From NCBI GenBank assembly GCA_000597885.1, contig CP004371.1, positions 62,001 through 126,000 of the forward strand: a stretch of 64,000 bases of DNA, in the 5' to 3' direction. The translations under genes and the position numbers were made by a program. Every line of letters starts with the position of its first letter. Position 1 is the first letter of the stretch. Below are positions 29,996 to 61,133 of this stretch, piece after piece. This DNA is from Flammeovirgaceae bacterium 311. Lineage in GTDB: Bacteria > Bacteroidota > Bacteroidia > Cytophagales > Cyclobacteriaceae. Below the pieces are notes generated by a model. The model was not told where the DNA came from and searched no databases. It was given only the letters and a program-made list of their open reading frames with translations.

Positions 29996-30040
29996 AATCT
30001 TTTTAATTTATTTTACTTAAAGCATTGAATAATATAAGGT

Positions 30041-31687
30041 CTAACTTTTAGGTTTCCTGTTTCCTTTTTTATGAGTGTGTGCCAGCTGTTGCTGGCTCAG
30101 CGGTTTTCTGTCTTTAACTGCATGAAGCATCTTAGCATGTGTATAAGCCTCTCCATCTGAATCTGCTGGTACTTTATTCATGGCTGTCCTATCTGTGGAG
30201 GCCACATCCGTGGGGGCTAATACCCATGTATCCTTGGAGCCTCCTCCCTGTGAAGAGTTTACAACCAGGTTGCCTGCAGTAAGTGCTACCCGTGTTAAGC
30301 CGCCCTGTAACACATATTGCATGTCTTTTCCCAGGAGCGTGTATAATCTTAGGTCGATGTGGCGAGGCTCAAAACTACTACTGTCTTTGATAAAGGTTGG
30401 ATGGGTAGACAAGGACATGATAGGCTGTGCAATGTATTTGCGTCTGTTATGCCTGATCCGCGTCCTAAAGTCCTGGAGCTGTTCTTTGGTGGCAGCATTG
30501 CCTACCAGCATACCATATCCCCCAAACTCATCTACAGGCTTTACCACCAGCTTCTGCATATGCTCCAGTACATAGTGGTAATCTTCATCGTCAGTGCAGT
30601 GGTAGGTATGTACATTCTGCAGAATGGGTTCTTCCTGCAGGTAATACCTGATCATAGCAGGCACATAGCTATATACGGCCTTATCGTCGGCTGCACCTGT
30701 TCCGGGGGCATTAATCAGGCTTATATTTCCTTTTCGGTAGGCTTCCATGATACCGGGTACCCCGTAAACAGAGTCGGGCAGAAAGGCTAAAGGGTCCAGG
30801 AATTCATCCTCAACTCTTCTGTACAGCACATTAAGCTGTTGGGCTCCACGGGTGGTCTTCATATAAACTTTATCTTTTTCAACAAAAAGATCTCTGCCTT
30901 CAACCAGCGGGATTCCCATGCTCTGGGCCAAATATGCATGTTCGAAATATGCAGAAGCCACCATACCATCAGTCAATACCGCACAGGCAGGCTCTTCTAC
31001 ACCCTGAGGTGCTACTGAATGCACCATTATCAGCAGGTGATCCAGATATTCTTTTAGCGGCCTTACATGGCAGCTGCTGAACAGGCCATTGAGGCTTCGC
31101 TTAATGGCTTCACGGTTGGCAAGTACATAGCTGATGCCCGAGGGTGTCCGTACATTATCTTCCAACACATAGTATTCACCATCACTATGGCGGATAAGGT
31201 CGGTACCGGAGATGTGGTTATATATGCCACCCGCCGGGTTCAACTCCTGCATGGCACGGCAAAAATACCTGGAGCTGATTACCAGCTCCCGGGGTATAAC
31301 TTTATCTTTGAAAATGTGCTGCCTTTGGTAAATATCATGCAGGAAAGCGTTTATGGCAAGATTGCGTTGAACCACCCCTTTCTCAAGCTTTTCCCACTCA
31401 TCAGCAGCAATTATCCTGGGCAGCAGGTCAAAAGGAAATATTCTTTCCTCGCCCTGTACCTTATCACTTCCTACTGTAAAAGTAATGCCCTGCTTCAGAA
31501 AGGACTGACGTGCCTGCAGATCAAGTTTATTGAAGTCACCTGGAGTATATTGCCTGATCCGTTCCAGTATTTTGATATATGCAGGATGTACTACACCTTT
31601 ATCATGAAATACCTCATCAGTAATTCCGGGAATACTCCTGTAATTTTCAAACATTCCGCATATGGTGCTACTACTCGTTTGTTGCAT
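30041..31687 (-). CDS. Circularly permuted type 2 ATP-grasp protein
   Basis: 548 residues from the ATG at 31687; a GTG one codon earlier is also possible. The family core is visible: YVLEDNVRTPSGISYVLANREAIKRS, KPVDEFGGYGMLVG, PTFIKDSSSFEPRHIDLRLYTLLG and GGLTRVAL. Members are predicted to ligate a carboxylate to an amine with ATP. It forms a two-gene unit with the alpha-E gene. The C-terminal 60 residues are polar and probably disordered. Confidence 0.92.
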   Translation of the reverse strand: MQQTSSSTICGMFENYRSIPGITDEVFHDKGVVHPAYIKILERIRQYTPGDFNKLDLQARQSFLKQGITFTVGSDKVQGEERIFPFDLLPRIIAADEWEKLEKGVVQRNLAINAFLHDIYQRQHIFKDKVIPRELVISSRYFCRAMQELNPAGGIYNHISGTDLIRHSDGEYYVLEDNVRTPSGISYVLANREAIKRSLNGLFSSCHVRPLKEYLDHLLIMVHSVAPQGVEEPACAVLTDGMVASAYFEHAYLAQSMGIPLVEGRDLFVEKDKVYMKTTRGAQQLNVLYRRVEDEFLDPLAFLPDSVYGVPGIMEAYRKGNISLINAPGTGAADDKAVYSYVPAMIRYYLQEEPILQNVHTYHCTDDEDYHYVLEHMQKLVVKPVDEFGGYGMLVGNAATKEQLQDFRTRIRHNRRKYIAQPIMSLSTHPTFIKDSSSFEPRHIDLRLYTLLGKDMQYVLQGGLTRVALTAGNLVVNSSQGGGSKDTWVLAPTDVASTDRTAMNKVPADSDGEAYTHAKMLHAVKDRKPLSQQQLAHTHKKGNRKPKS

Positions 31688-32423
31688 CACGATAGAATTT
31701 TAAAAAAGCGATCCAATAAAGGATACTGCCTCCTGTTGGTCTTACTACATAAAGAATTTTACTGAAAGGGAAGAGGCAAAATGTTCTCTTTTGATCTCTT
31801 AAAATATTATTATTTGTAGGTGTTACCTCTCTTTAAAGATGCGGGACAAAGTGTGTGCCCAGCATAAAAAATACTTTAAAGTCTCTTTCAGTTTATAAAC
31901 TAGACAACTGATACTAGCCAGAAAATGTACCGGTCCAATTGTGAAAAAACAAACGGCGGTAAGCCTGGCAGAGTTACAGATATTAAGGTGATGGCTGCTA
32001 AATAAATAAAACAATTAGATGAAGGAGGGTGGGCAGATAAAATAAAGATTATAGCAGTATTAAGCCGGGCAGGCGTAGATAGCTGCTTTGAGCTGTAGAG
32101 CTTCTGAAAGTAAGATCTGATTAGTGATTATTTGCTGTCTGCTAAATTAGTTGTGGTATCGGTTTTATCTGGTATTGCGGGTCTAGATTTGAGCAGGGCA
32201 TCATACCAAAATGATAAAATTATATCAAAATGACATGCTGTAAATGGGGCCATTTGCATACAGTTTAAGCTTGAAGAAATAAATAGTGGCTATTTTGATA
32301 AATGGAGCCGTTTTTCCGGCACTTACTGTTATTCTGGCACATTGTCTGTATAATATAAAACAGATCCTGATTTATTTTTTAAACTTGACATTGGCTGATT
32401 TTTTTAACTTGTACTAGAAAAAG

Positions 32424-45786: not shown

Positions 45787-46683
45787 TTAATGCTGGTACA
45801 GGGGCTGCTGCGATGCTATAATCTCTTGCTTCAGCTGTTCAAAATCTGTTTCTGTTGCCTCCGGACGGTAGGTTTCTGAAGTGCTACGCTCCAGCGGGTA
45901 GCCCAGGTGTCGCAGCAGGGGACCGGCTATAATTTCAGTTTTTTCCACCTGCTCATCTGTAAGTGCTTCCATCCAGTAACCCGAGGCCCCTTTTTTCAGG
46001 TGCCTGGGATTCTTTTTTTGCAGGGTTGAAAAACTAACAGCGTTTTCCAGTGCAATGCGTTCGGTCTGGCTAAGCTCCAGTACCAGGTATGCCAGCAGCT
46101 TTTCCAGCTCCTGCTGAAAGTGTAGTAGGAAATTTTCGTAAAAACAGATGTGGACGTTGTATGAGCTGCTATGGCGAAGGTGGTCCCATACGTGCCATAC
46201 CCATTCGTGCATAAGCCGTTCAAAGTTCTTTTCCAGAAAGCGCTGTGGGTCTTTTTCCTCCTGCGGATAGTACTTTAGCATATAGGGCGAGCAATGATAT
46301 TTAGCGGCAGAAAGAGCGCGGTCACGTGGGTCCCTGATGATGTAAACCTTTTTATCAAACAGTTCCAGCACCTCACCGCTCCGTTTACAGATTGGAGAAT
46401 GTGTCCACACATGGGTGGTTTGCCTGATATAGCTCCTGATATCTTCAACAGGCATTCTGTAAATGCTGCTGATACGATAACTGAGCTGCAGGTCGGTGAT
46501 CTCAAGCACATCAAGCCTGGCCTGTTCGGGGAAATTCAGGTCCCATTCACGGGCTAAGGTATATATGGGCTGCTGTTCAATAAAGCTGGTTGTACTTCGA
46601 CCAGTTCGTTCAAGAATCTGTTGTATGATCTGGTAAAGCCAGAAGTTGCCACACTTGGGCACACCTCCCTGCAGTATTTGCAT
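45787..46683 (-). CDS. Sulfotransferase-domain protein
   Basis: 298 residues. The PAPS 5'-phosphosulfate loop GVPKCGNFW (7-15) lies at the very start and the 3'-phosphate motif RDPRDRALS (R117, S125) follows at the expected distance. It would move sulfate from PAPS to an acceptor, perhaps a lipid or sugar. The acceptor is unknown and no PAPS-synthesis genes are in the window. Confidence 0.85.
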   Translation of the reverse strand: MQILQGGVPKCGNFWLYQIIQQILERTGRSTTSFIEQQPIYTLAREWDLNFPEQARLDVLEITDLQLSYRISSIYRMPVEDIRSYIRQTTHVWTHSPICKRSGEVLELFDKKVYIIRDPRDRALSAAKYHCSPYMLKYYPQEEKDPQRFLEKNFERLMHEWVWHVWDHLRHSSSYNVHICFYENFLLHFQQELEKLLAYLVLELSQTERIALENAVSFSTLQKKNPRHLKKGASGYWMEALTDEQVEKTEIIAGPLLRHLGYPLERSTSETYRPEATETDFEQLKQEIIASQQPLYQH

Positions 46684-46795: not shown

Positions 46796-48568
46796 CTATG
46801 CCACCAGCAATCCTCTTACCTGCCTGTTTACCAGAGAAGCGTAGTAGCCGTTGGCAACCATCAGGCCCTGATGGTTGCCCGCTTCCAGAATGCCTCCCTC
46901 TTTCAGTACCAGTATTCTGTCTGATTTAACCACAGTAGAAAGGCGGTGGGCAATTACAATAGAGGTGCGGCCGTGCATCAGGCGTTCCAGCGCTTCCTGC
47001 ACCTGTGCTTCCAGCTCTACGTCCATGGCAGAGGTAGCTTCATCCAGTATCAGGATGGGAGGATTCTTCAGGATGGCACGGGCGATGGCAATCCGCTGGC
47101 GTTCGCCTACCGACAGGTTGCCGCCCCGCTCACCGGCCATGCTGTCGTAACCATTGGGGAGCCTCATGATAAACTCATGCGCATTCGCTGCTTGGGCTGC
47201 TTCTTCTATTTCTTTAAAGGAAGCTTCAGGCCTGCCATAGGCAATGTTATCGCGGATACTTTCATTAAAGAGCAGTGCATCCTGCAGCACCACACCTATG
47301 TTTTGCCTGATTGATTGCTGCTTCAGACTGCGAATATCCTGCCCGTCGATGCTGATGACGCCACTTACTGGATCGTAAAATCGCTGGATGAGGGCAGTCA
47401 TGGTGGATTTGCCTGTACCGCTGGGACCGACAAAAGCAATTGTTTCGCCAGCTTTGATACGCAGGTTAATGCCTTTCAGAATTGGGCGGTGGGTGGCATT
47501 ATAATGAAAATGCACATCCTCAAAACAGATTTCGCCCCTAACCTGCTTAAGCTCGGTTGCATCCGGGGCATCACCCAGAAAATCCTGTGTATCCAGGATA
47601 GAAAAGATATGCCCGAGTGAAGCGCTTGCGGTACGGATAATGCGGTAAATATTGGTAATGTTCTGTACCGGTCCAAATAAACCCCCTACGTAGGCTATAA
47701 AAGCTACCAGGGTCCCTAGGGTCATTTCTTCTCTGAGCACCAGCATACTGCCAAAGGATACGGCAGAGAGCGTAGCCAGGGTAACACTAAGGTTTTGAGC
47801 GGCTCTGATTTTGGAGTCAAAGTTTACCCCGTTTACCACCGTTTGGTTTGCTTCACCCACATTGCTCAGAAAGCGATTTTTTTCGTAATCTTCCATGGCG
47901 AAACTCCTCACGGTTACGATACCAGAGAGTACCTCATTAAAGCGGGAGTAGATCTTACCCCACTTATTCATTAAAAACTCTTCTCTTTTGCTCTGAGCCG
48001 GGGCGGCCCAGGCGGCAATAACGGCTGGCAGCGGCGCAAAGGCCAGTACCAGCAGGGTCATGCGCCAGTCAAGTCGCACCATGACAATGATGGCCAGTGT
48101 AAGGTAGGTAAGGGCAGGCGCCAGGTTAAATATCACTTCCGATAAGGCTCCGAGGAAGCCCTGTATACCACGATCCAGTTTAGTCATAATGGCACCGATA
48201 CCTTCTTTTCGCTGGCTCTCCAGGGGGAGCCGGTGCAGGCGCTCTACAGTAGCACTAAGAAGTCCCTGGTGAATGGAAAGACGGGTTCTCCAGGTAAGGT
48301 AGTTGGAGCGGGCCGAGATTGCTTCTTTTAGAAAGGCCATAGCCACAAGCCCGGCTGCGGTGATAAGTACCTGTGCTAATGATGATTTATTGCCCAGGCT
48401 ATCGAAAATGTGCCGCATCATCAGCGGTTCTGATACACCAATGGTAGCAACCGATAAGGCACAAAGAAGCACTATTAGTATATAGCGGCGTTCTGCTTTT
48501 GCATACCCCAGCGCACGGCTTATCTGCTTCCAGTGCCCGCCAATCTTTTCTCTTAAATCCTGTAACAT
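46796..48568 (-). CDS. ABC exporter, fused permease and ATPase (second)
   Basis: 590 residues. The membrane half (residues 25-310) has six segments, followed by Walker A GPSGTGKST at 381, signature LSVGERQRIAIARA (one substitution in LSGGE), Walker B ILILDEATSAMD and switch H in IAHRLST. It looks like a lipid or multidrug exporter of the MsbA/LmrA type. A TAnnTTTG motif lies about 60 bp upstream on its strand. Confidence 0.94.
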   Translation of the reverse strand: MLQDLREKIGGHWKQISRALGYAKAERRYILIVLLCALSVATIGVSEPLMMRHIFDSLGNKSSLAQVLITAAGLVAMAFLKEAISARSNYLTWRTRLSIHQGLLSATVERLHRLPLESQRKEGIGAIMTKLDRGIQGFLGALSEVIFNLAPALTYLTLAIIVMVRLDWRMTLLVLAFAPLPAVIAAWAAPAQSKREEFLMNKWGKIYSRFNEVLSGIVTVRSFAMEDYEKNRFLSNVGEANQTVVNGVNFDSKIRAAQNLSVTLATLSAVSFGSMLVLREEMTLGTLVAFIAYVGGLFGPVQNITNIYRIIRTASASLGHIFSILDTQDFLGDAPDATELKQVRGEICFEDVHFHYNATHRPILKGINLRIKAGETIAFVGPSGTGKSTMTALIQRFYDPVSGVISIDGQDIRSLKQQSIRQNIGVVLQDALLFNESIRDNIAYGRPEASFKEIEEAAQAANAHEFIMRLPNGYDSMAGERGGNLSVGERQRIAIARAILKNPPILILDEATSAMDVELEAQVQEALERLMHGRTSIVIAHRLSTVVKSDRILVLKEGGILEAGNHQGLMVANGYYASLVNRQVRGLLVA

Positions 48569-49360: not shown

Positions 49361-50071
49361 ATGGGATCCATATCACATAAAATAGCTTTGATTTCTGGTG
49401 GAGCAGGAGGAATAGGACGGGCTATTGCCAATTTACTGGCTAAAGATGGTGTGAATACGGTTATCGCAGATCTTCGGGAGCCTTTAGAGAAAGATCAGCA
49501 TCTCTATTATCACAAAACCGATATCAGTGATGCAGCTGCGATCAACAGCCTTTACAGTTATGTACAGGAGCAGCATGGCAATCCCGACCTGATCGTGTGT
49601 AATGCCGGGATGGGCATCAAAGAGCGGCTGGCAGAGGGAGATCCTGAAAAATGGCAGCAGGTGTTTAATCTGAACGTGATGGGCCACCTGCGTACCATCC
49701 GTGCGTTTTTGCCGCAGATGCTCCAAAAGAACTATACAACAGATGTTGTTTTTATATCATCAGTAGCAGCCAGAAAACCCCACGAATGGGGTGGCATATA
49801 CGCTGCATCCAAGGCGGCAGTACAGAGCCTGGCAGAAACCCTTCGCCTGGAGGTGCAGCCAAAGGTGCGGGTGAGTACGGTATTGCCCGGGGTAGTGGAT
49901 ACTGATTTTTTTGCCCATACAATGGGAGGAGATACAGCATCTGCCGAAAGCTTTGGATGGGGGAGTCTCAGTGCAGGAGAGGTGGCCGAAGCAGTATATT
50001 ATATTATTAGCAGACCCCCTGGTGTGGCGGTAAATGAAATAACATTACGACCGGCTGCGCAGGCTTTTTAG
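49361..50071 (+). CDS. SDR-family dehydrogenase
   Basis: 236 residues, classical SDR: GGAGGIG (13-19), NAG (81-83), SS at 133-134, Y147 and K151. It oxidises or reduces a hydroxyl or keto group with NAD(P). First gene of the glycoside cluster, 32 bp before the epimerase gene, so probably acts on a sugar intermediate. Confidence 0.92.
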   Translation: MGSISHKIALISGGAGGIGRAIANLLAKDGVNTVIADLREPLEKDQHLYYHKTDISDAAAINSLYSYVQEQHGNPDLIVCNAGMGIKERLAEGDPEKWQQVFNLNVMGHLRTIRAFLPQMLQKNYTTDVVFISSVAARKPHEWGGIYAASKAAVQSLAETLRLEVQPKVRVSTVLPGVVDTDFFAHTMGGDTASAESFGWGSLSAGEVAEAVYYIISRPPGVAVNEITLRPAAQAF

Positions 50072-50103
50072 AAATAGAGAAGTTATATATTTTTTAAATT
50101 CTT

Positions 50104-51222
50104 ATGAATAAGCAAGTATTAATTACAGGAGGAGCGGGTTTCATTGGATCACATCTGGCCAATGAACTATTAAAGAACGGATATAAAGTTAGGGTATTGG
50201 ATAATCTGCTGGAGCAGGTACATGGCAGCGAAGCCAGAAGGCCAGTTTACCTGCACCCTGATGTAGAGCTGATACAGGGCGATGTGCGCGACCGGAAAGC
50301 ACTGGATCGTGCACTGCTGGATGTAAATGTTGTTTATCACTTTGCTGCACGCGTTGGGGTGGGGCAAAGCATGTACGAGATACGGGAATACACCGATGTA
50401 AATAATATAGGCACGGCAGTGCTGCTGGAAGCACTGGCAGATCAGCCGGTAGATAAGCTGGTGGTAGCCTCCAGCATGAGCATTTACGGCGAAGGCCTTT
50501 ACAAGAATGCAAAAAGCCAAAGCGTACTCGCCAATTGCCGCCCCAAAGAGCAACTCAAAAAGGCACAATGGGAGGTGCTGGATGAGGAGGGCAATCCTTT
50601 ACAGCCGGTTGCTACTCCGGAAACAAAAACACCAAACCTGGCATCAGTCTATGCCCTCTCAAAATATGATCAGGAGCAGATGTGTCTGATTGTGGGAGCT
50701 GCCTACAACATACCAACCGTTGCCTTAAGATTTTTCAATGTATATGGTCCCCACCAGGCTCTTTCCAATCCATACACCGGGGTGCTGGCCATTTTTGCCA
50801 GCCGTTTCCTGAACGATAAGGCTCCCATGATTTTTGAGGATGGCCTGCAGCAACGCGATTTTGTAAGTGTTTACGACATTGCCCGTGCCTGCCGACTGGC
50901 TATTGAAACACCCGAAGCCGCCGGCGAAGTATTCAATATTGGCAGCGGCCAGAGCTACACCATCCTGGAGATTGCCCGAAAGATGGCAGCTGTTATGAAT
51001 AAACAACACCTGTTGCCGGAAATTACAGGTAAATACAGAGTAGGCGATATTCGCCATTGCTACGCCGATATCTCAAAAGCCAGAGAAATTCTTGGGTATC
51101 AGCCTTCTTACACCCTGGAAAGAGGCATGGAAGAGCTGGCAGAATGGTTGCAAACACAAATTGCAGAAGATAAGGTTGCTGATGCCAAGCAGGAGCTTGA
51201 GGCAAGAGGTCTGACTGTATAA
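50104..51222 (+). CDS. NAD-dependent nucleotide-sugar epimerase/dehydratase
   Basis: 372 residues, extended SDR: GGAGFIG (9-15), DVRDR, HFAA (79-82), SSMSIYGEG (123-131), catalytic Y183 and K187, and FFNVYGPHQ. The SMSIYGEG text and length resemble dTDP-L-rhamnose 4-epimerase, but UDP-sugar epimerases are equally possible. It acts on a nucleotide sugar in the cytoplasm. 24 bp before the next gene. Confidence 0.92.
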   Translation: MNKQVLITGGAGFIGSHLANELLKNGYKVRVLDNLLEQVHGSEARRPVYLHPDVELIQGDVRDRKALDRALLDVNVVYHFAARVGVGQSMYEIREYTDVNNIGTAVLLEALADQPVDKLVVASSMSIYGEGLYKNAKSQSVLANCRPKEQLKKAQWEVLDEEGNPLQPVATPETKTPNLASVYALSKYDQEQMCLIVGAAYNIPTVALRFFNVYGPHQALSNPYTGVLAIFASRFLNDKAPMIFEDGLQQRDFVSVYDIARACRLAIETPEAAGEVFNIGSGQSYTILEIARKMAAVMNKQHLLPEITGKYRVGDIRHCYADISKAREILGYQPSYTLERGMEELAEWLQTQIAEDKVADAKQELEARGLTV

Positions 51223-51246
51223 TTTTTTATCAGAGAATATTCCACT

Positions 51247-53259
51247 ATGAATAAGCATAAAAATACACCTGCTGTAGGGATTGTACAGTGGTTTCATATA
51301 GGCGAAAAAGAGAAGGTAAAACGAACCATAACAGACCTGCAGGAACTGGGGGTTACCCAGCTTAGAACCGGTATTTCCTGGGCTGACTTGTTTAGTCCGG
51401 AAGGTAAGGAGTGGTACGACTGGCTCCTGCCAACCCTTGCCAGCCACTTTGAACTACTGCCCTGCTTTACCTACACACCTCCCTCACTGGGTATAGAATC
51501 TAAGATATCTTCCCCTCCCCGGAACCTGAAGGACTATGCCGATACCATGGACCTGCTCATTACAGAATATGGAGAATATTTTGAGTACATAGAACTGTGG
51601 AATGAGCCAAACAACAAAAGCGAGTGGGATTATACCCTGGACATGGCCTGGCAGAAGTTTGCCGAAATGGTTGGCAATGCTGCCTATTGGGCAAAGCAAA
51701 GAGGCAAGAAAACTGTGCTTGGTGGCATGAGCCCCATTGATCCCAGCTGGCTAAGCCTGATGGGAGACTACAAGCTCCTGCAACACATCGACGTGGTGGG
51801 TATACATGGTTTTCCGGATGTTTTTGATTTTAGCTTTGAAGGCTGGATGGAAAACATCAAGCGGGTGCAGGAGATGCTCAACTACCATAAGTGCGAAGCG
51901 AAGATCTGGATCACGGAGTGCGGGTTTTCTACCTGGCAGAAAAATGAGCTAAAGCAGGCAGAGGAATTTGCAAAACTGCTCCATTTGCCCCTGGATCGTG
52001 TTTACTGGTATTCACTGTATGACCTGGAACCCGAAAAAAATACAATGGATGGTTTCCACCTGGATGAACGTGAATATTCATTTGGAATCAAAAACCTTAA
52101 TGGCTCACCAAAACTGCTGCACAGCCTGTGGCTGGAGTATGGCCTAAAGGCTATACCAGACAAAGTGGATGCTTTAAAACCCCTGGCACTGGATGACAGC
52201 CCCGAAGAAAAACCTGTATTAATTACCGGTGGTGCCGGCTTTGTAGGCACCAACATGGCTGATTATCTGCTCTCGCAGGATATACCTGTTATCATTTTCG
52301 ATAACCTAAGCCGCAAAGGCGTACTGAAGAATCTTAGCTGGCTGAAAGCCAAATGGAAAAACAGGGTACAGATTACCATTGCAGATATTCGCAATCCATA
52401 CGAGGTAGAAAAGGCTGTTCAGAAAGTATCGCACATTTACCATTTTGCTGCACAGGTAGCTGTTACCACTTCTGTTACCGATCCCGAAGAGGATTTTGAG
52501 GTAAACCTGAAGGGAACGCTCAACATATTGAACGCCATGCGCAAAATGGAGAACCCGCCCAGCCTGCTCTATACTTCTACTAATAAAGTGTATGGCAATC
52601 TGGCAGAGCTTAGGCTAAGCGAAAACAGCAGTAATTATACACCTTCTAATATTGCTTATAAGGATGGTATTGATGAGGATCAGCCCCTGAGCTTTCATAG
52701 TCCCTATGGGTGCTCCAAAGGTGCTGCAGATCAGTATGTATCGGATTATGCCCGCATTTATAACCTCAAAGCAGTAGTATTCCGCATGAGCTGTATCTAT
52801 GGTCCCCATCAGTGCGGCTCCGAAGACCAGGGCTGGGTGGCAAACTTCCTCATCCGGGTGCTAAATGATGAAACCATCAATATATACGGCAACGGAAAGC
52901 AGGTGAGAGATATATTGTATGTAGAAGACCTGGTGCAGGCCATGGAGCTGGCACGCAAAAATATTGACCATTTCAGCGGAGAGGCTTTTAACATAGGAGG
53001 TGGTGCCGACAATGCAGTTAGTCTGCTGGAGGTGCTGGAAATTATTGCCGAAGCGCACGGGCAGCAACCTCATACCAGCTATGGCGACTGGCGGCCAGGT
53101 GATCAGTATTATTATGTTTCTGATTTTGGGAAATTTCAGCAGGCTACCAAATGGCAGCCGCAGATCTCTTACAAAAGAGGCATAAAGAAACTGTACCAGT
53201 GGCTCCGCCAGGAGAGTCCTGCAGAAAACGTAAGGCCGCTTAAGGCACTGAAAGCCTGA
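51247..53259 (+). CDS. Fusion of a clan GH-A glycoside hydrolase and a nucleotide-sugar epimerase
   Basis: 670 residues in one continuous frame. Residues 1 to about 310 look like a TIM-barrel glycosidase: YIELWNEPN with E120 as acid/base and IWITECGFS with E224 as nucleophile, the usual 100-residue spacing of clan GH-A. Residues 322-660 are an extended SDR: GGAGFVG (328-334), FAAQVAVTTSV, STNKVYG, SPYGCSK (Y487, K491), close to CDP-paratose/UDP-glucose epimerases. There is no signal peptide, so both act in the cytoplasm. This is the central oddity of the cluster. Confidence 0.92.
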   Translation: MNKHKNTPAVGIVQWFHIGEKEKVKRTITDLQELGVTQLRTGISWADLFSPEGKEWYDWLLPTLASHFELLPCFTYTPPSLGIESKISSPPRNLKDYADTMDLLITEYGEYFEYIELWNEPNNKSEWDYTLDMAWQKFAEMVGNAAYWAKQRGKKTVLGGMSPIDPSWLSLMGDYKLLQHIDVVGIHGFPDVFDFSFEGWMENIKRVQEMLNYHKCEAKIWITECGFSTWQKNELKQAEEFAKLLHLPLDRVYWYSLYDLEPEKNTMDGFHLDEREYSFGIKNLNGSPKLLHSLWLEYGLKAIPDKVDALKPLALDDSPEEKPVLITGGAGFVGTNMADYLLSQDIPVIIFDNLSRKGVLKNLSWLKAKWKNRVQITIADIRNPYEVEKAVQKVSHIYHFAAQVAVTTSVTDPEEDFEVNLKGTLNILNAMRKMENPPSLLYTSTNKVYGNLAELRLSENSSNYTPSNIAYKDGIDEDQPLSFHSPYGCSKGAADQYVSDYARIYNLKAVVFRMSCIYGPHQCGSEDQGWVANFLIRVLNDETINIYGNGKQVRDILYVEDLVQAMELARKNIDHFSGEAFNIGGGADNAVSLLEVLEIIAEAHGQQPHTSYGDWRPGDQYYYVSDFGKFQQATKWQPQISYKRGIKKLYQWLRQESPAENVRPLKALKA

Positions 53260-53298
53260 TAATCAGCTCAAGCAAAACTATACATAAAGAAACAGAAG

Positions 53299-54330
53299 AT
53301 GCATTCTGCAACTATGCAATCTACAACAATTGAAGAAAACGAAAGGGTACACCCAGAAGCAGCGCTGCCCAAAACCATGCCTGCTGCTGCCTTTGCCGGC
53401 AACAACGAGATTACGCTGAAAGAAGCACCACTCCCTACACCAGGACCTACACAGGTGCTGGTAAAGCTGGAGGGCTGCGGCGTATGTGCTTCCAATATTC
53501 CTACTTATGAAGGGCGGGAGTGGTTCAGCTATCCGCAGGAGCCTGGTTCCGGCGGGCACGAAGGCTGGGGTATAGTGGTAAAAGCAGGTGAGGAGGTAAA
53601 AAGCCTGCAGCCCGGCGACCGTGTCGCCATGCTTTCTTACGCTGCCTATGCTGCTTATGATGTAGCGGAGGAGGAGGTATGCATGAAGCTGGAAGGACCT
53701 CTGGCCGACAAAGCTTTTCCTGGAGAACCTTTGGGCTGTGCCATCAACATATTTAACCGCTGCGATATAAAACCGGGACATACCGTCGCCATTATAGGCA
53801 TTGGGTTCCTGGGAGCACTGCTCACCCAGCTTTGTAAAGAAAGAGGTGCAACCGTAATAGCACTTAGCCGTAGAGAATATTCTCTGCAGGTTGCCAGAGA
53901 TTGCGGCGCCGACCATACCATACCCCTGAATGACCATTGGCAAATCATTGAACAGGTAAAACAGCTCACTGAAGAAAAGTGGTGCGACCGTGTGATAGAG
54001 GCTACCGGCAAAGAGTGGCCGCTGAACCTGGCCGGTGAGCTGCTCCGGAACAGGGGCAGGCTTATCATAGCTGGTTTTCACCAGGATGGTATGCGCAACG
54101 TTAATATTCAGCAATGGAACTGGAAAGGACTGGATGTGATCAATGCCCACGAACGGGAGCAGGAGGTTTACATGGAGGGCATGCACGAAGCAGCAGCAGC
54201 TGTAGCCAGTGGCCGTATAGATCCGGAGCCGCTCTACACCCATACTTTTTCCCTGCAGGAGATCGATAAGGCATTCGAATGTATTACCCAAAGGCCAGAT
54301 GGCTTTCTTAAAGCATTGATCAAGCTATGA
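53299..54330 (+). CDS. MDR-family (zinc alcohol dehydrogenase-like) oxidoreductase
   Basis: 343 residues. Catalytic-zinc text GCGVCASN (C60), GHEG (H87, E88), and a Rossmann fold GIGFLG (167-172). The four-cysteine structural zinc lobe is missing. An internal ATG at residue 6 and a polar leader make the exact start uncertain. It overlaps the next gene by 4 bp. It likely oxidises a sugar hydroxyl together with the following oxidoreductase. Confidence 0.9.
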   Translation: MHSATMQSTTIEENERVHPEAALPKTMPAAAFAGNNEITLKEAPLPTPGPTQVLVKLEGCGVCASNIPTYEGREWFSYPQEPGSGGHEGWGIVVKAGEEVKSLQPGDRVAMLSYAAYAAYDVAEEEVCMKLEGPLADKAFPGEPLGCAINIFNRCDIKPGHTVAIIGIGFLGALLTQLCKERGATVIALSRREYSLQVARDCGADHTIPLNDHWQIIEQVKQLTEEKWCDRVIEATGKEWPLNLAGELLRNRGRLIIAGFHQDGMRNVNIQQWNWKGLDVINAHEREQEVYMEGMHEAAAAVASGRIDPEPLYTHTFSLQEIDKAFECITQRPDGFLKALIKL

Positions 54331-55379
54331 TAGAAGCTACCACTACAAAAGAGAAAGATATACCACAAAGTAATTTAAAAACAGGCAAACCCAGGCTCGC
54401 ATTCGTTGGAGTGGGCTGGATTGGCAGAAACAGGATGGAGGCGTTGGTGAAGGGGGAATTGGCAGAAGTGGCCGGCATTCTGGAACCTGGCACCGAAAAT
54501 CTGGAAGCGGCACTTTCTGTAGCCCCCAACGCTCAAACTTACGAAAGTTTTGAAGCACTGCTGGATGCTGATGTGGACGGTGTGGTCATTGCCTCGCCCA
54601 GTGCCCTGCATGCCGGGCAGAGCATTGCTGCACTCAACAAGGGTAAGGCAGTTTTCTGTCAGAAACCCCTGGGACGTGATGCTACAGAAACCAGTGCCGT
54701 TGTAGAGGCGGCACGCAAAAACAACCTGTTGCTGGGAGTTGATCTCTGCTACCGTTATACCTGTTTCCGCCAGCTGTATGACATCATCCGGAGCGGCGAG
54801 CTTGGACATATTTATGCAGCAGAACTGGTTTTTCATAATGCATGGGGTCCTGATAAGGAATGGTTTTACAACCCTAAACTATCTGGTGGAGGTTGTGTGG
54901 TAGATTTGGGTATTCACCTGATGGACCTGGTTTACTGGTCGCTCAACAACCCCGACGTAACTTCTGTGAGCAGCAACCTGTTTTCAAAAGGCCAGCCACT
55001 CACTAACCTACAGGAGCAGGTAGAAGATTATGCCAGTGCGCTTATAAAACTAAAGCTTCCAAACGGCGGCGAAACATCCCTGCAGCTTATCTGTTCCTGG
55101 AATCTGCCATCAGGGCAGGAGGCTGATATACAGGCTAATTTTTATGGCACCAATGGCGGTGTTGCCTTCCGCAACATGAGTGGATCGTTCTATGATTTTA
55201 AAGCCCTGCGGTTTAACCGCACACAGACAGAGGTGTTGTTTCAGGGGCCAGATGACTGGGGCGGGCGCCCCATTTCCGACTGGACAAGAAGGCTGGCAGC
55301 TGGCGATAAATTCAATGCTGAATCAGAAACCATTGTAGAAGTAGCTAAAACCCTTGATCGCATCTATGGCCGTATGTGA
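54327..55379 (+). CDS. Gfo/Idh/MocA-family oxidoreductase
   Basis: 350 residues. Rossmann GVGWIG (28-33), QKP (112-114) where the family usually has EKP, and DLGIHLMDL (D193, H197). The lysine is kept. Such enzymes oxidise or reduce sugars with NAD(P), often paired with an MDR enzyme as here. Coupled to both neighbours by overlap (4 and 14 bp). Confidence 0.93.
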   Translation: MIEATTTKEKDIPQSNLKTGKPRLAFVGVGWIGRNRMEALVKGELAEVAGILEPGTENLEAALSVAPNAQTYESFEALLDADVDGVVIASPSALHAGQSIAALNKGKAVFCQKPLGRDATETSAVVEAARKNNLLLGVDLCYRYTCFRQLYDIIRSGELGHIYAAELVFHNAWGPDKEWFYNPKLSGGGCVVDLGIHLMDLVYWSLNNPDVTSVSSNLFSKGQPLTNLQEQVEDYASALIKLKLPNGGETSLQLICSWNLPSGQEADIQANFYGTNGGVAFRNMSGSFYDFKALRFNRTQTEVLFQGPDDWGGRPISDWTRRLAAGDKFNAESETIVEVAKTLDRIYGRM

Positions 55380-56505
55380 GCTGTCGCCGAAAACTATTTT
55401 AATGACAGCCGACACAGTCGGTGGGGTATGGACCTATGCACTGGAACTGGTAAAGGCTCTGCAGCCACTGGGCGTAGAGGTGCACCTGGCCACTATGGGT
55501 AAGCTACCTACAACAGCTCAGAAGAAAGAGGCTGCCGCTCTAAAAAACATAATATTGCATACTGCTAGTTACCAGCTGGAATGGATGGAGCAGCCATGGC
55601 GGGAGGTAGATGCGGCAGGAGAGTGGCTGCTGGCCCTGGAGAAAGAGATTCAGCCCGACCTGATCCACCTGAACAATTACTGCCATGGGGATTTGCCCTG
55701 GCAGGCACCGGTGCTGATGGTAGGGCACTCCTGTGTACTTTCCTGGTGGAAGGCGGTGAAGGGTGTAGAGGCACCGGAAAACTATACTACCTATGCCAGG
55801 AGGGTTAAGAAAGGATTAGGGGCCGCAGACCTGGTGCTGGCACCAACCAAAGCTTACCTGGAGCAGTTAAGGTATTATTATGGCCCTTTTGTGCAGGATG
55901 GGGTAATTGCTAACAGCAGAGATGGCAGCTATTTTAAACCAGGTACAAAAGAAAAATTCATTTTAAGTGCAGGCCGGCTTTGGGATGAAGCCAAGAACCT
56001 GGCCGCCTGTGAAAAGGCAGCTGCAGAGTTAGCCTGGCCTATAGCGATAGCCGGCGATAACCTGCATCCCGGTAACGGACAGGAATTGGCCTATCACCAC
56101 CTGGAGTTGCTGGGAAGACTGGAGCCTGCTGCATTAGCCGAAAAAATGGCTAAAGCGGCTATCTATATCATGCCTGCCAGATATGAACCCTTCGGGCTTA
56201 GTATTCTGGAGGCGGCCCTTTCAGGATGTGCCCTGGTACTGGGAGACATACCCAGCCTGCGTGAAAACTGGCAGGGGGTGGCCCAGTTTGTAAATCCCCA
56301 TGATCCTGAAGATATCAGGAGCAAACTGGATTTTCTGATCAGAAATCCGCAAATCAGGGAACGGATGGGTACATTAGCCCGGGAACGTGCTGCAGATTTT
56401 AATCCCGGTGCGGGAGCTGCTGCCTATTTACATTATTACAAAGCATTGCTCAATAGTCAGAATACTGTAGCTGATAAGGCATTGAAGCCAGAACAGATAG
56501 TTTAA
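55366..56505 (+). CDS. GT4-family glycosyltransferase
   Basis: 379 residues from the ATG at 55366 (14-bp overlap); a TTG at 55354 is less likely. GT-B fold: TADTVGGVWTYALELVKAL at the N-terminus, and the GT4 donor motif PARYEPFGLSILEAALSG near the C-terminus. A retaining transferase, using a nucleotide sugar on an unknown acceptor. Confidence 0.93.
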   Translation: MAVCELSPKTILMTADTVGGVWTYALELVKALQPLGVEVHLATMGKLPTTAQKKEAAALKNIILHTASYQLEWMEQPWREVDAAGEWLLALEKEIQPDLIHLNNYCHGDLPWQAPVLMVGHSCVLSWWKAVKGVEAPENYTTYARRVKKGLGAADLVLAPTKAYLEQLRYYYGPFVQDGVIANSRDGSYFKPGTKEKFILSAGRLWDEAKNLAACEKAAAELAWPIAIAGDNLHPGNGQELAYHHLELLGRLEPAALAEKMAKAAIYIMPARYEPFGLSILEAALSGCALVLGDIPSLRENWQGVAQFVNPHDPEDIRSKLDFLIRNPQIRERMGTLARERAADFNPGAGAAAYLHYYKALLNSQNTVADKALKPEQIV

Positions 56506-56522
56506 CCGATCAATTTAGACTC

Positions 56523-57635
56523 ATGAAAATAAAACTTTTTTATCACTCGCTCATCTCCTGCTGGAACCACGGGAATGCTCACTTTTTGCGAGGCGTTGTT
56601 GCAGATCTTATGGCCAAAGGACACCAGGTGGATGTGTTCGAACCCTCTGATGGATGGAGCTATGAAAATATGGTGAAGGAGCATGGCGGTGCAGCCGTCA
56701 GCAATTTCAAAAAGGCGTTTCCGTTGCTGAAAACCAATTTTTACTTTCCTGCAGAAACTGATTATGCTGCCCTGGTGCAGGATGCTGACATGGTGATTGT
56801 GCATGAATGGAACACCAGTGAGCTGGTGAGCAGAATCGGGGAGCTGAAGGAACGCTATGGATATACCTTGCTGTTTCACGATACCCATCATCGATCTGTA
56901 TCCGCACCGGAAGAAATGAGCCGTTATGACCTAAGCAACTATGATGGTGTACTGGCCTTCGGGGAGGTGATCAGGGATATTTATCTGAAAAAGGGATGGG
57001 CCAAAAAGGTATGGACCTGGCACGAGGCTGCCGATATGCGCCATTTCTATCCAAGGGCTACAGAAGAGCATCTGGGGGACCTGGTCTGGATTGGCAACTG
57101 GGGCGATGATGAACGTGCAGAGGAGTTGGAGGAATTCCTGATCAGACCGGTGGAGGAGCTGGGACTCAAGGCTGCCATATATGGAGTTCGTTATCCGGAG
57201 CATGCAAAAAAGAGACTAAAAGAGGCTGGTATTGAATACAAAGGTTGGCTGCCCAATTATATGGCTCCTGTTATCTTCAGTCAGTATTCATTTACGGTGC
57301 ATGTACCCCGCCGTTACTACACCCAATCCCTTCCTGGTATTCCAACCATTCGTCCCTTCGAGGCCATGGCTTGTGGCATTCCGTTGATCTCTTCTCCATG
57401 GGAAGATGCAGAAGGACTTTTCCAGCCGGGCAAGGATTTCCTTATGGTGAAGAATGGCGAAGAAATGAAACAGGCCATGCAGGAGGTACTGACTAATCCA
57501 TACAAAGCACGTGAGTTAACAGTACATGGCTTAAGGGCCATCAGAGAAAAACACAGTTGTGCCCACCGGGTAAAGGAGCTGATGCAGATCTACGAAGAAC
57601 TGCAGACTACAAAGCCAAAGTTAGAACAGGTATGA
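56523..57635 (+). CDS. CgeB-like glycosyltransferase, copy 1
   Basis: 370 residues. N-terminal SCWNHGNAHFLRG and FEPSDGW, C-terminal Glyco_trans_1_2 text IRPFEAMACGIPLISSPWEDAEGLF. It is related to the next two genes, suggesting three paralogues acting in turn or on different acceptors. The stop codon lies inside the left arm of inverted-repeat element C. Confidence 0.9.
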   Translation: MKIKLFYHSLISCWNHGNAHFLRGVVADLMAKGHQVDVFEPSDGWSYENMVKEHGGAAVSNFKKAFPLLKTNFYFPAETDYAALVQDADMVIVHEWNTSELVSRIGELKERYGYTLLFHDTHHRSVSAPEEMSRYDLSNYDGVLAFGEVIRDIYLKKGWAKKVWTWHEAADMRHFYPRATEEHLGDLVWIGNWGDDERAEELEEFLIRPVEELGLKAAIYGVRYPEHAKKRLKEAGIEYKGWLPNYMAPVIFSQYSFTVHVPRRYYTQSLPGIPTIRPFEAMACGIPLISSPWEDAEGLFQPGKDFLMVKNGEEMKQAMQEVLTNPYKARELTVHGLRAIREKHSCAHRVKELMQIYEELQTTKPKLEQV

Positions 57636-57760
57636 GGTATGGGGTATGTGCGGGCCGCCAGTAGTATAGAAAGCTGCAGAATAAATTAAATGGCTCATCT
57701 ATGGAATTGAGAAGTTGATAGGTAACTGAATCCGTATCTCCTGTCCCCATACCTCATACC
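57629..57760 (+). repeat. Intergenic inverted-repeat element C
   Basis: GGTATGAGGTATGGGG (57629-57644) and CCCCATACCTCATACC (57745-57760) are perfectly complementary over 16 bp across a 100-nt loop. Further GGTAT-type words lie beside the right arm to about 57776. It accounts for most of the 163-bp gap between CgeB-like copies 1 and 2. Confidence 0.85.
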
Positions 57761-57798
57761 TCAAACCCCATACCCAAACAATAAAAACCCAGAACTAC

Positions 57799-58878
57799 AT
57801 GAAAATAGCATTTTTTGGCTCTTCGCTGGTTTCGGCATACTGGAATGGAGCCGCTACCTATTACAGGGGCATCATCAGCGCTTTGCATGAACGCGGACAC
57901 CAGGTTACTTTTTATGAGCCTGATGCTTATGAGCGACAGCAAAATCGGGATATAGACAATCCTGAATACGCCACCGTAAGGGTGTATGCACCTACTGAAC
58001 AAGCAGCAGGGGAGATGTTGAAGGAAGCAGCTGCGGCAGACCTGATTGTAAAAGCCAGTGGTGTTGGAGTGCTGGATGAGTTCCTGGAGGCAGCGGTGCT
58101 GAAGGGACGTAAGGAAGGACAGCTGATCGCCTTCTGGGATGTGGATGCACCTGCTACTTTGCATAGCGTTCACTCAAATCCGCAGAACCCATTCAAGGCA
58201 CTTATACCCCAGTACGATTATATCTTTACCTACGGGGGCGGCGACCCTGTGATTGAAAAATATACAGCGCTGGGTGCAAAAGCCTGTATTCCTATTTATA
58301 ATGCACTTGATCCTGCCACCCATTATCCGGTGCCGGAAAATAAAGATTTTACCTGCGATCTTGCCTTTTTGGGTAACCGCCTGCCAGACCGGGAACAGCG
58401 GGTAGAAGAGTTCTTTTTGAAAGCAGCCTCGCTCATGCCAGAGAAGAAGTTTATCCTGGGAGGCAGTGGCTGGGCCGATAAACCCATGACACCTAATGTA
58501 GACTACATTGGTCATGTAAGCACCAATGACCATAATGCCTTTAACTGCACCCCCCTGGCAGTCCTGAACATCAGCCGTGAAAGCATGGCCAGCAATGGTT
58601 TTTCGCCTGCCACCCGTGTGTTCGAAGCTGCCGGTGCAGGTGCCTGCCTTATCACCGATTACTGGGAAGGGATAGAGCTGTTCCTGGAACCCGGTACTGA
58701 GGTGCTGGTAGCCCGCAATGGTGCGGAAGTGGCTGATATCCTGCAGGACCTGACCCCAGAAAAAGCAAAAGCCATTGGAGAGGCTGCCTTACAGCGGGTG
58801 CTGTCGGAACATACCTACCGCCACCGGGCCAAACAGTTTGAGGAAATCCTGGAGAAACATTTAAAGGTAGAAGCATGA
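57799..58878 (+). CDS. CgeB-like glycosyltransferase, copy 2
   Basis: 359 residues with the paralogue's marks: SAYWNGAATYYRG, FYEPDAYERQQNRD, and the donor-side motif TRVFEAAGAGACLITDYWEGIELFLEPG. Start ATG at 57799. It overlaps the next gene by 4 bp (ATGA). Confidence 0.9.
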   Translation: MKIAFFGSSLVSAYWNGAATYYRGIISALHERGHQVTFYEPDAYERQQNRDIDNPEYATVRVYAPTEQAAGEMLKEAAAADLIVKASGVGVLDEFLEAAVLKGRKEGQLIAFWDVDAPATLHSVHSNPQNPFKALIPQYDYIFTYGGGDPVIEKYTALGAKACIPIYNALDPATHYPVPENKDFTCDLAFLGNRLPDREQRVEEFFLKAASLMPEKKFILGGSGWADKPMTPNVDYIGHVSTNDHNAFNCTPLAVLNISRESMASNGFSPATRVFEAAGAGACLITDYWEGIELFLEPGTEVLVARNGAEVADILQDLTPEKAKAIGEAALQRVLSEHTYRHRAKQFEEILEKHLKVEA

Positions 58879-59960
58879 GCAGGAAAGAACTCAAAATCGT
58901 GATCATCGGGCTCACCATCACCTCCTCCTGGGGAAACGGTCATGCTACAACTTTCCGCAGCCTGGTAAAGGAACTCAGCAAGCGTAGGCACAATGTAACT
59001 TTCCTGGAGCACGACAAACCATGGTATGCCTCCCAGCGAGATCTGCCTAATCCGCCATACTGCCAGACCTCTTTATATTCATCTGTGGATGACCTAAAGC
59101 AGCGCTTTGAACCGGTGGTGAAGGAGGCAGATATGGTGATAGTAGGTTCTTATGTGCCCGAAGGCATTGCTGTAGGAAGCTGGGTGAACAAAATAGCCGG
59201 AGGTGTGCGTGCCTTTTATGATATTGATACCCCTGTGACCATTGCACAGGTGCAAAAAGGTGTCTGCGATTATCTGGATAAGGCGCTGATTCCTGAGTAC
59301 AATTTATACCTTTCTTTTTCAGGCGGCACCGTGCTGGACTACCTGGAGCGTGAAATGGGGGCACAGCAGGCCCTGCCGCTCTACTGTTCGGTAGATCCGG
59401 AGCTCTATTATCCCGAGACAGAAACGATACGAGAATACGATCTGGGTTATATGGGCACCTACAGTGATGACCGGCAGCCGCCGCTCGATCAACTGATGCT
59501 GGAGGCAGCTCGTCAGTGGCAGGAGGGTAAGTTTATTGTGGCAGGCCCGCAGTACCCGGCTACCATTCAATGGCCTGCCAATGTGGGGCGGCTGGAGCAC
59601 CTGCCTCCGTCAAAACACCGCCACTTTTATAACCAGCTGCGCTTCACCCAAAATATTACCCGTGCCGATATGATCCGCATGGGCCACTCACCCAGCGTGC
59701 GTCTCTTCGAAGCAGCGGCCTGTGCAACGCCCATCATCAGTGATTATTGGGAAGGCCTGGACAGCTTCTTCTCATTTGGAGATGAAATACTGGTAAGTTA
59801 CTCGGCTGCAGATACCTTGAAATTTATCCGCGAAATGCCGGAACAGGAACGTGTTGAAATAGGAAACAGGGCAAAAGCCAAAGTGCTTAAGCTGCACACA
59901 GCTGCCAAAAGGGCCGAAGAACTGGAGAGCTATGCACTGGAAATGCTAAAACCTGCTTAA
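58875..59960 (+). CDS. CgeB-like glycosyltransferase, copy 3
   Basis: 361 residues: ITSSWGNGHATTFRS, FLEHDKPWYASQRD and VRLFEAAACATPIISDYWEGLDSFF. It is nearer to copy 2 than to copy 1 by these marks. Its stop is 2 bp before the methyltransferase start. Confidence 0.9.
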   Translation: MSRKELKIVIIGLTITSSWGNGHATTFRSLVKELSKRRHNVTFLEHDKPWYASQRDLPNPPYCQTSLYSSVDDLKQRFEPVVKEADMVIVGSYVPEGIAVGSWVNKIAGGVRAFYDIDTPVTIAQVQKGVCDYLDKALIPEYNLYLSFSGGTVLDYLEREMGAQQALPLYCSVDPELYYPETETIREYDLGYMGTYSDDRQPPLDQLMLEAARQWQEGKFIVAGPQYPATIQWPANVGRLEHLPPSKHRHFYNQLRFTQNITRADMIRMGHSPSVRLFEAAACATPIISDYWEGLDSFFSFGDEILVSYSAADTLKFIREMPEQERVEIGNRAKAKVLKLHTAAKRAEELESYALEMLKPA

Positions 59961-59962
59961 AA

Positions 59963-60760
59963 ATGGAAACTTTACAGAAAGAAATAGAAAGTCTTAAGCC
60001 GTGGTTTCATAACCTGCATCTGCCGGATGGGGTACAGACTGCGCCAGATCACTGGCTGGGCAATTTTCCCCAGTTCAAATGGAACGAGATTGCTCCTTAT
60101 ATACCCGAAGATCTCTCCGGATGGCGAGTGCTGGATGTAGGTTGCAATGCAGGGTTCTATACCTTTGAACTGGCGCGCAGGGGAGCCGATGTGCTGGGTA
60201 TCGATGTAGACACCCACTACCTGAAACAGGCAGAATGGGCCGCCGGTAAAATGAAGCTGCAGAAGCAGGTGCGCTTTCAGCAAATGCAGGTATATGACCT
60301 GGCAAAGCTGGATGAACAGTTCGACCTGATCTGGTTTATGGGCGTACTGTACCACCTGCGCTATCCATTGCTGGCACTGGATGTACTGGCTGAGAAAAAT
60401 AAGGATATGATGGTATTTCAGACCCTCAGCATGCCTGGCGAAACCGCCGAAAAGGACACCTGGGACAGGACCATAAACGACCGTCAGGATCTGCTGAAGG
60501 AGGGCTGGCCAAAAATGGCTTTCGTAGAGCATAAATTTGCCGGCGACCCGACCAACTGGTGGCTGCCCAACCATGCAGGTATCGAAGCCATGCTGCGCTC
60601 CTGCGGTTATAAGATTACCGATCGCCCCGGTCATGAAATATACATTGCCAGAAAAGATGCCGGAAATCCTAGCAGCTTGCAAACCTGGAATCGGAGTGAG
60701 TTCCTTTCTGCTACTCAGCAGGACTGGCAGAGTGAAGTAGGACATAAGATCAAAAAGTGA
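59963..60760 (+). CDS. SAM-dependent methyltransferase, last gene of the cluster
   Basis: 265 residues. Motif I VLDVGCNAGFYTFEL (D58-G64), an acidic post-motif GIDVD, and DLIWFMGVLYHLRYPLLAL. From memory it resembles the family NCBI names TIGR04290 (Rta_06860), which I could not verify. It likely methylates a sugar or sugar-lipid made by the preceding genes. A strong terminator follows 23 bp later. Confidence 0.88.
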   Translation: METLQKEIESLKPWFHNLHLPDGVQTAPDHWLGNFPQFKWNEIAPYIPEDLSGWRVLDVGCNAGFYTFELARRGADVLGIDVDTHYLKQAEWAAGKMKLQKQVRFQQMQVYDLAKLDEQFDLIWFMGVLYHLRYPLLALDVLAEKNKDMMVFQTLSMPGETAEKDTWDRTINDRQDLLKEGWPKMAFVEHKFAGDPTNWWLPNHAGIEAMLRSCGYKITDRPGHEIYIARKDAGNPSSLQTWNRSEFLSATQQDWQSEVGHKIKK

Positions 60761-61133
60761 TTTAGCAAAATTCCTATCATATAAAACCCGCCTGTTGTAA
60801 ACCCTACAACCCGCGGGTTTATTTTTTGTGGTAACATTTCAATCTCCAGGAGCAAACCACTTTAATAATCTGCCAATTCTACCCTTTGCTTACATCTACA
60901 CCAACATTTAATGTTAGCCAAATATTTCTATATCTGCAGATAAAGCATATTTTCGAGTATAACTCCTGCTGTGCCAGCTGTGGCTCCGGAATTAATTACC
61001 TGCACTTCAAACGAATAAAATGCTATAAACGCATTTAAGATGATACAGCGGGCCACATTGTTTAGCAGTGATACAGATTATACAGCAGCTAAATGATGGG
61101 TGAGAGGATATGATCAACATGATTTTCTGAAAG
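60761..61133. other. Gap between the cluster and the penicillin-binding protein gene
   Basis: 373 bp holding the cluster terminator and the promoter region of the next gene. No promoter consensus was found. Confidence 0.45.
60784..60828 (+). terminator. Terminator of the glycoside cluster
   Basis: Outer stem AAACCCGC (60784-60791) with GCGGGTTT (60813-60820), inner stem GTTGT/ACAAC, then a T-run. It closes the ten-gene unit. Confidence 0.92.

Follow-up and report, generated by a model that had tools for sequence, protein, structure and literature searches.

Two NCBIfam hypothetical equivalogs, the TIGR04290 methyltransferase and the TIGR04295 B12-binding radical SAM enzyme, already mark a recognised kind of gene cluster, which is presumably the one named the 'rhizo-twelve system'. 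Searches of one literature library turned up no paper on TIGR04290, on 'rhizo-twelve' or on the gene set of the cluster, nor is it discussed in the Ramlibacter genome paper. The window analyzed here (64,000 nucleotides of the 6.67 Mb genome of Flammeovirgaceae bacterium 311; contig CP004371.1, positions 62,001 to 126,000) carries a ten-gene cluster on its + strand, at positions 49361-60760 of the window. We rate it as a variant of this known but unexplained cluster kind, with a medium-chain dehydrogenase (MDR), a Gfo/Idh oxidoreductase and a fused glycoside hydrolase (GH). It shares with the TIGR04290/TIGR04295 clusters the TIGR04290 methyltransferase, the linked NAD-dependent epimerases (one or two), a GT4 glycosyltransferase (GT), three PF13524 GTs in the same order and a GH domain, and its four GTs are orthologous to those of annotated proteobacterial clusters. 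It differs from them in having the MDR and Gfo/Idh enzymes instead of the radical SAM enzyme, a GH fused to an epimerase instead of a permuted stand-alone GH, an extra short-chain dehydrogenase (SDR) at the front, and no linked UDP-xylose synthase (UXS) or INO1. The cluster in the window is therefore of the TIGR04290 kind, outside the radical SAM subtype.

Three other described systems resemble it in part. The mycobacterial cluster for methylmannose polysaccharide (MMP) is alike in outline, as a functional analogue: it makes a methylated saccharide with a GT, a methyltransferase and the endo-glycosidase MmpH, which recycles the mature product into primers (PMC9883506). MMP is built as a homopolymer by a single mannosyltransferase, and its description includes neither an epimerase nor an MDR, a Gfo or a set of three PF13524 enzymes (PMC9883506). 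PslG of the Psl cluster is, like the GH of the window, a GH39-type barrel in a biosynthetic cluster, with a catalytic glutamate spacing of 111 versus 104 and 16-17% identity between the two. PslG is mostly periplasmic, has a signal peptide and belongs to a polymer locus (PMC11912335), whereas the GH of the window appears to be a cytosolic enzyme and shares its polypeptide with a sugar-nucleotide epimerase. Finally, the cyclic beta-glucan exporters NdvA/ChvA are the best NCBIfam match of an ATP-binding cassette (ABC) exporter adjoining the cluster (439 bits, below the family cut-off of 733), but the cluster has no cyclic glucan synthase.

The ten open reading frames (ORFs) have exactly the borders given in a first-pass annotation of this stretch, and Pfam and NCBIfam searches returned the gene families named there.

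49361..50071, + strand: SDR1, classical short-chain dehydrogenase, first gene, seen with Bacteroidota versions of the cluster (PF00106, 4e-44)
50104..51222, + strand: EPI2, extended SDR resembling 4-epimerases of nucleoside diphosphate (NDP) sugars, core gene (PF01370, 1e-53)
51247..52170, + strand: N-terminal domain of the fusion, putative GH39-type (PslG-like) TIM barrel (AlphaFold2 model, Foldseek)
52192..53259, + strand: EPI3, C-terminal domain of the fusion, extended SDR resembling CDP-tyvelose/paratose 2-epimerases (PDB matches)
53299..54330, + strand: MDR4, zinc-type medium-chain dehydrogenase (PF00107/PF08240)
54327..55379, + strand: GFO5, Gfo/Idh/MocA oxidoreductase (PF01408/PF22725)
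55354..56505, + strand: GT6, GT4-family glycosyltransferase (PF00534/PF13439)
56523..57635, + strand: GT7, PF13524 (CgeB-type) glycosyltransferase, monophyletic ortholog family (support 100)
57799..58878, + strand: GT8, PF13524 (CgeB-type) glycosyltransferase, monophyletic (support 100)
58875..59960, + strand: GT9, PF13524 (CgeB-type) glycosyltransferase, monophyletic (support 98)
59963..60760, + strand: MT10, S-adenosylmethionine-dependent methyltransferase of the TIGR04290 family, CmoB-related (NCBIfam)
60784..60829 (approximate), + strand: terminator hairpin of the Rho-independent type with a T-rich tail (AAACCCGC-CTGTTGTAAACCCTACAAC-CCGCGGGTTT, then ATTTTTT)

The tight spacing described in the first-pass annotation holds for all gaps (-26 to +39 bp) but one, the 163 bp between GT7 and GT8 (57635 to 57799), the first two PF13524 genes. 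The listed TTG start of GT6 overlaps GFO5, and an ATG lies five codons further in. The assignment of MT10 to TIGR04290 is clear (347.8 bits, cut-off 300). EPI2 matches UDP-glucose 4-epimerases and related epimerases in the PDB, and MDR4 matches ketose reductase and sorbitol dehydrogenase there. The fusion protein is 670 amino acids long; the matches of its EPI3 domain to 9rl0 (6e-88) and 1orr (2e-85), with other SDRs far below, suggest a relative of CDP-tyvelose 2-epimerase, predicted to epimerise an NDP-sugar at C2. GT8 found no relative in a PDB sequence search.

To define the distribution of the cluster, we used an alignment of five methyltransferase sequences to scan a genome set with one representative per species, and obtained at least 568 methyltransferase relatives. 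The best 80 of these, together with annotated plasmid records and genomes of the family, were annotated by profile searches, and all locus counts rest on the 76 loci that are at least 15 kb long and free of duplicates. At least eight of the nine core genes are present in 62 of these long loci, EPI2 in 64 and GT8 in 75. The exact order EPI2-EPI3-MDR-Gfo-GT4-GT7-GT8-GT9-MT is found in 39 of them, and several of the others are truncated at the edge of the DNA stretch analyzed. The hosts belong to about a dozen phyla, with some assignments resting on contigs of metagenome-assembled genomes (MAGs), which may be misnamed: Bacteroidota, Ignavibacteriota, Alpha-, Beta- and Gammaproteobacteria, Geobacterales, Verrucomicrobiota, Planctomycetota, Gemmatimonadota, Chloroflexota, Acidobacteriota, Armatimonadota and Actinomycetota. 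Among the isolates are Pontibacter, Geomonas, Ramlibacter, Variovorax, Xanthomonas and Legionella. Nine of the ten genes thus recur together far above chance, which bears out the earlier proposal of a single biosynthetic unit; the gene order in other genomes, which the first-pass annotation had proposed to compare, is largely the same. The tenth, SDR1, has counterparts of 45-75% identity in each of the six family relatives retrieved, and also occurs in Flavobacteriaceae loci. Biosynthetic clusters of this kind, with the TIGR04290 methyltransferase as their hallmark, are widespread.

Close to home, its distribution is patchy. The cluster occurs in seven of 391 genomes of the family, and among 395 genomes drawn from the phylum only the genome of the window has it; another genome of the same genus also carries it. 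Each of the three CgeB-type transferases represents an ancient family of its own, monophyletic in approximate likelihood ratio tests (SH-aLRT 100, 100 and 98 for GT7, GT8 and GT9). Legionella wadsworthii carries the whole cluster and is nested within Flavobacteriaceae in all three transferase trees, an apparent transfer between phyla. Taken together, the three monophyletic families and the same placement of Legionella in each tree indicate that the cluster set is of ancient origin and is transferred as a whole.

Two parts of the cluster are exchangeable. The MDR and Gfo/Idh enzymes occur jointly in 62 of the 76 loci, including that of the window, and the TIGR04295 enzyme in four (Kastovskya, two Azospirillum and Bradyrhizobium), each without MDR and without Gfo.

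L144:11487-12815, L145:21269-22555, L161:11508-12815, L051:1-1317: TIGR04295 B12 radical SAM enzyme in place of MDR and Gfo/Idh

TIGR04295 was not found anywhere in the genome of the window. Since the two solutions never occur together, the most economical interpretation gives them one shared function, perhaps the inversion of one carbinol centre; the swap rests on four cases, and the Kastovskya stretch is incomplete.

The second exchangeable part is the glycosidase. The N-terminal domain of the fusion has no Pfam match, but its AlphaFold2 model (pLDDT 85.9) has PslG as best Foldseek match (E 3e-15). The model has a (beta/alpha)8 fold with the acid/base glutamate of an NEP motif on beta-4 and the nucleophile glutamate on beta-7. 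The putative residues are E120 (in WNEPN) and E224 (in TECGF); across 23 homologs E120 is invariant and E224 nearly so. We therefore predict a PslG-like barrel of the GH39 type that would hydrolyse beta-glycosides with retention. In loci without the fusion, a short protein that carries the annotation 'beta-xylosidase' aligns with the fused-GH profile in two blocks of swapped order, with model positions ~107-293 first and ~3-105 second.

L144:16795-17718, L145:16741-17691, L102:11457-12398, L060:19632-20516, L118:2011-2940 and others: stand-alone permuted GH (profile match)

Every stand-alone copy examined, from Rhizobiaceae to Planctomycetota and Bacteroidota, has the permuted order, and the protein starts just ahead of the WNEPN strand. 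Modelling gave an eight-stranded barrel, for which a sequential structure search retrieved only generic barrels (best E 1e-4), as is expected of a permutant. The stand-alone GH thus appears to be a natural circular permutant of the fused domain, and would provide a clean natural example of barrel permutation within one pathway. The fused form was scored in 38 loci and the stand-alone form in 21; both forms were called in just two loci, and in one of the two, L039, a single gene may have been read as two.

Genes for sugar and inositol supply are linked to the cluster in some lineages only: UXS, INO1 and a histidine phosphatase are each found in 18 of the 76 loci. The genome of the window has one UXS gene, remote from the cluster (C1:4159740), and no INO1, so that UDP-xylose is a plausible donor in all versions of the cluster and inositol a plausible acceptor in some versions only. 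We also observed a protein of about 580 amino acids that recurs in many related clusters (L144:17766-19517, L118:8466-10283, L158:4161-5897, L146:4444-6204) and has no Pfam or NCBIfam match. Its copy at L118:8466-10283 had no match in 12 family genomes, searched without a positive control. In Rufibacter and Ensifer/Sinorhizobium, a satellite set beside the cluster (L053:16041-19420, L158:12-2938) consists of FrhB-like, pyruvyltransferase-like, histidine phosphatase and permuted GH genes, and hints at more shared tailoring steps.

The first-pass annotation had also stated that the locus has no exporter. This is true inside the ten-gene interval, but the next gene upstream, divergent from the cluster, encodes one.

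46796..48568, - strand: NdvA/MsbA-type ABC exporter (NCBIfam, tree, co-occurrence)

In a tree, this protein groups (support 1.0) with ABC proteins that adjoin the cluster in other lineages. It shares 55% identity with that of Opitutus, 57% with that of a Bacteroidota MAG and 51% with that of a Gemmatimonadales MAG, but only about 34-35% with its own paralogs in the genome of the window. An ortholog (62% identity) is also present in an Ignavibacteria genome with the cluster. ABC proteins beside three further clusters (L087, L107 and L120) belong to other subfamilies and were excluded as orthologs. With a threshold of E <= 1e-130, orthologs were detected in six of the 391 family genomes, each of which belongs to the seven that carry the cluster. 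When counted by genus, the three carriers all fall within the four cluster genera out of 84, which has a probability of about 4e-5 by chance (4 / C(84,3)). We predict that this protein is probably the cognate exporter of the cluster product.

These data lead us to our best reading of the cluster, in which a small, soluble oligosaccharide or glycoside is assembled in the cytosol, and to which we assign a probability of roughly 55%. The small methylated glycoside proposed earlier is plausible in this respect. All ten proteins look soluble, with no clear transmembrane segments or signal peptides in hydropathy analysis. The product would be a soluble, O-methylated and probably xylose-containing oligosaccharide, which its own glycosidase trims or primes and which is sometimes exported. 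We infer the substrates, the order of the steps, the site of methylation and the role of the GH as follows. EPI2 and EPI3 would form unusual nucleotide sugars by 4- and 2-epimerisation, with UDP-xylose as a source in many relatives. MDR4 and GFO5 would work as a pair that oxidises and then reduces a single carbinol carbon, in the acceptor or in a sugar, and so inverts or alters it. The GT4 enzyme may begin the chain on the acceptor, the three PF13524 transferases may append further residues, and the TIGR04290 enzyme may O-methylate the product. The PslG-like GH would then cut the product or an intermediate, either for trimming or, as MmpH does, to yield primers for new chains. The ABC exporter would export the product in the lineage of the window and in some others; elsewhere the product probably stays inside the cell.

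Several observations weigh against this reading. UXS is not linked to the cluster in the window. No GH lies within the analyzed DNA in 19 of the 76 loci, in some of them because the stretch is truncated. One of the seven family genomes with the cluster lacks the exporter. In four of the six that have it, exporter and cluster are unlinked, and orthologs in other family genomes have no neighbors in common with the cluster. Among 21 other cluster genomes, 15 show no exporter match at E 1e-100, and only five have an ortholog of at least 46% identity. Since the exporter is unlinked in most family carriers and has few orthologs in other genomes, it is a frequent but dispensable partner of the cluster. 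Finally, INO1 is absent from the genome of the window and from five of six relatives with the cluster, and the acceptor may therefore differ between cluster versions.

This last point bears directly on a special case of the oligosaccharide reading, which we consider possible but doubtful: an inositol glycoside as the product. Free myo-inositol would come from INO1 and the histidine phosphatase, MDR and Gfo/Idh or the radical SAM enzyme would convert it into another stereoisomer, and the transferases would add xylose and other sugars. The loci with INO1 near the methyltransferase (Alpha- and Betaproteobacteria, Verrucomicrobiota) often have the histidine phosphatase adjoining it. Moreover, the best NCBIfam match of MDR4 is scyllo-inosose 3-dehydrogenase and GFO5 resembles inositol 2-dehydrogenase, both below cut-off, and GT6 has weak PDB matches to MshA and PimA, which act on inositol. 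Nevertheless, none of the 38 loci with the GH fusion has a linked INO1, and the nearest PDB entries of GFO5 are the glycoside oxidase DgpA and 1,5-anhydrofructose reductase. We rejected inositol as a universal acceptor, an idea suggested by the proteobacterial loci and unsupported in the window, whose genome lacks INO1.

It is unlikely, in our view, that the four transferases build a glycan on lipid or proteins, with the ABC exporter as a PglK/MsbA-like flippase for a lipid-linked product (a glycolipid or a precursor of protein glycans). PF13524 and GT4 enzymes are found in such pathways, Bacteroidota glycosylate proteins, and the MsbA/NdvA superfamily of the exporter includes lipid flippases. 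On the other hand, the exporter is nearer to the glucan exporters than to PglK in NCBIfam (439 versus 190 bits), many cluster genomes lack it, and the cluster is linked to neither a priming phosphoglycosyltransferase nor an oligosaccharyltransferase or ligase.

The same holds for the parts of a classical Wzx/Wzy-type O-antigen or exopolysaccharide locus. Pfam annotation of the genes found no Wzx, Wzy or priming phosphoglycosyltransferase in the cluster of the window, and no Wzx/Wzy, polymerase, lipid-carrier or priming enzyme was found among the neighbors of related clusters with multiple transmembrane segments. These neighbors are amino-acid permeases, Nramp, BrkB, major facilitator superfamily, Form_Nir (formate/nitrite channel) and UbiA proteins. 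The sole lipid flippase seen, MurJ, occurs only in one locus (L109) in which the methyltransferase is present and the transferases are absent. The contrast with classical loci drawn in the first-pass annotation therefore stands: relatives keep the genes together, without a linked polymerase. A short exopolysaccharide or capsule-like polymer, synthase- or ABC-dependent and with its missing parts elsewhere in the genome, is improbable, because a dozen or so phyla show no linked polymerase, synthase, copolymerase or outer-membrane exporter and the GH has no signal peptide, even though PslG belongs to an exopolysaccharide cluster (PMC11912335), an ABC exporter adjoins the cluster and other PF13524 loci lie at 0.47 and 4.77 Mb of the genome.

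Returning to the soluble oligosaccharide, we tentatively suggest, at less than even odds, a broader interpretation. The cluster may define a new class of O-methylated, xylose-containing oligosaccharides made in hundreds of species from about a dozen phyla and perhaps serving as stress protectants, with one step carried out by two unrelated chemistries (MDR and Gfo/Idh or B12 radical SAM) and the glycosidase step by a fused GH39-type domain or its circular permutant. In 14 alphaproteobacterial loci, several of them related to one another, four EcfG-type promoters were seen against 0.21 expected (P-value 7e-5), and stress-type genes lie beside alphaproteobacterial copies of the cluster. These signals are no more than suggestive of a stress role; to our knowledge, EcfG does not occur in Bacteroidota. 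The gene order of the pathway is largely conserved in Bacteroidota, Proteobacteria, Verrucomicrobiota, Planctomycetota, Actinomycetota and others. Its hosts include the model symbionts Sinorhizobium (pSymB), Rhizobium and Azospirillum, and with its parts, exporter and two interchangeable modules defined, the product is directly testable in tractable strains.

At the ends of the cluster, the two signals proposed in the first-pass annotation fared differently. Just downstream, the terminator is well supported by a strong hairpin and a T run, in a region that folds at -22 kcal/mol. The promoter-like motif found no support. Sites resembling sigma-70 promoters are not enriched in a consensus scan (15 versus 18.3 in shuffles). 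A Bacteroidota-like TAGATTTG lies at -21, but the same strand of the window has 35 sites of its TAnnTTTG type, and the closest relative lacks the motif.

Directly downstream of the exporter gene lies another candidate.

45787..46683, - strand: Sulfotransferase_1 gene (PF00685, 4e-15)

We considered this gene as a possible tailoring enzyme, but the link is weak, as its adjacency to the exporter is seen in the same genus only.

A pair that we take to be recurrent and of no known product is also present in the window, at 29048-31690, where an Alpha-E gene and a circularly permuted ATP-grasp gene lie side by side.

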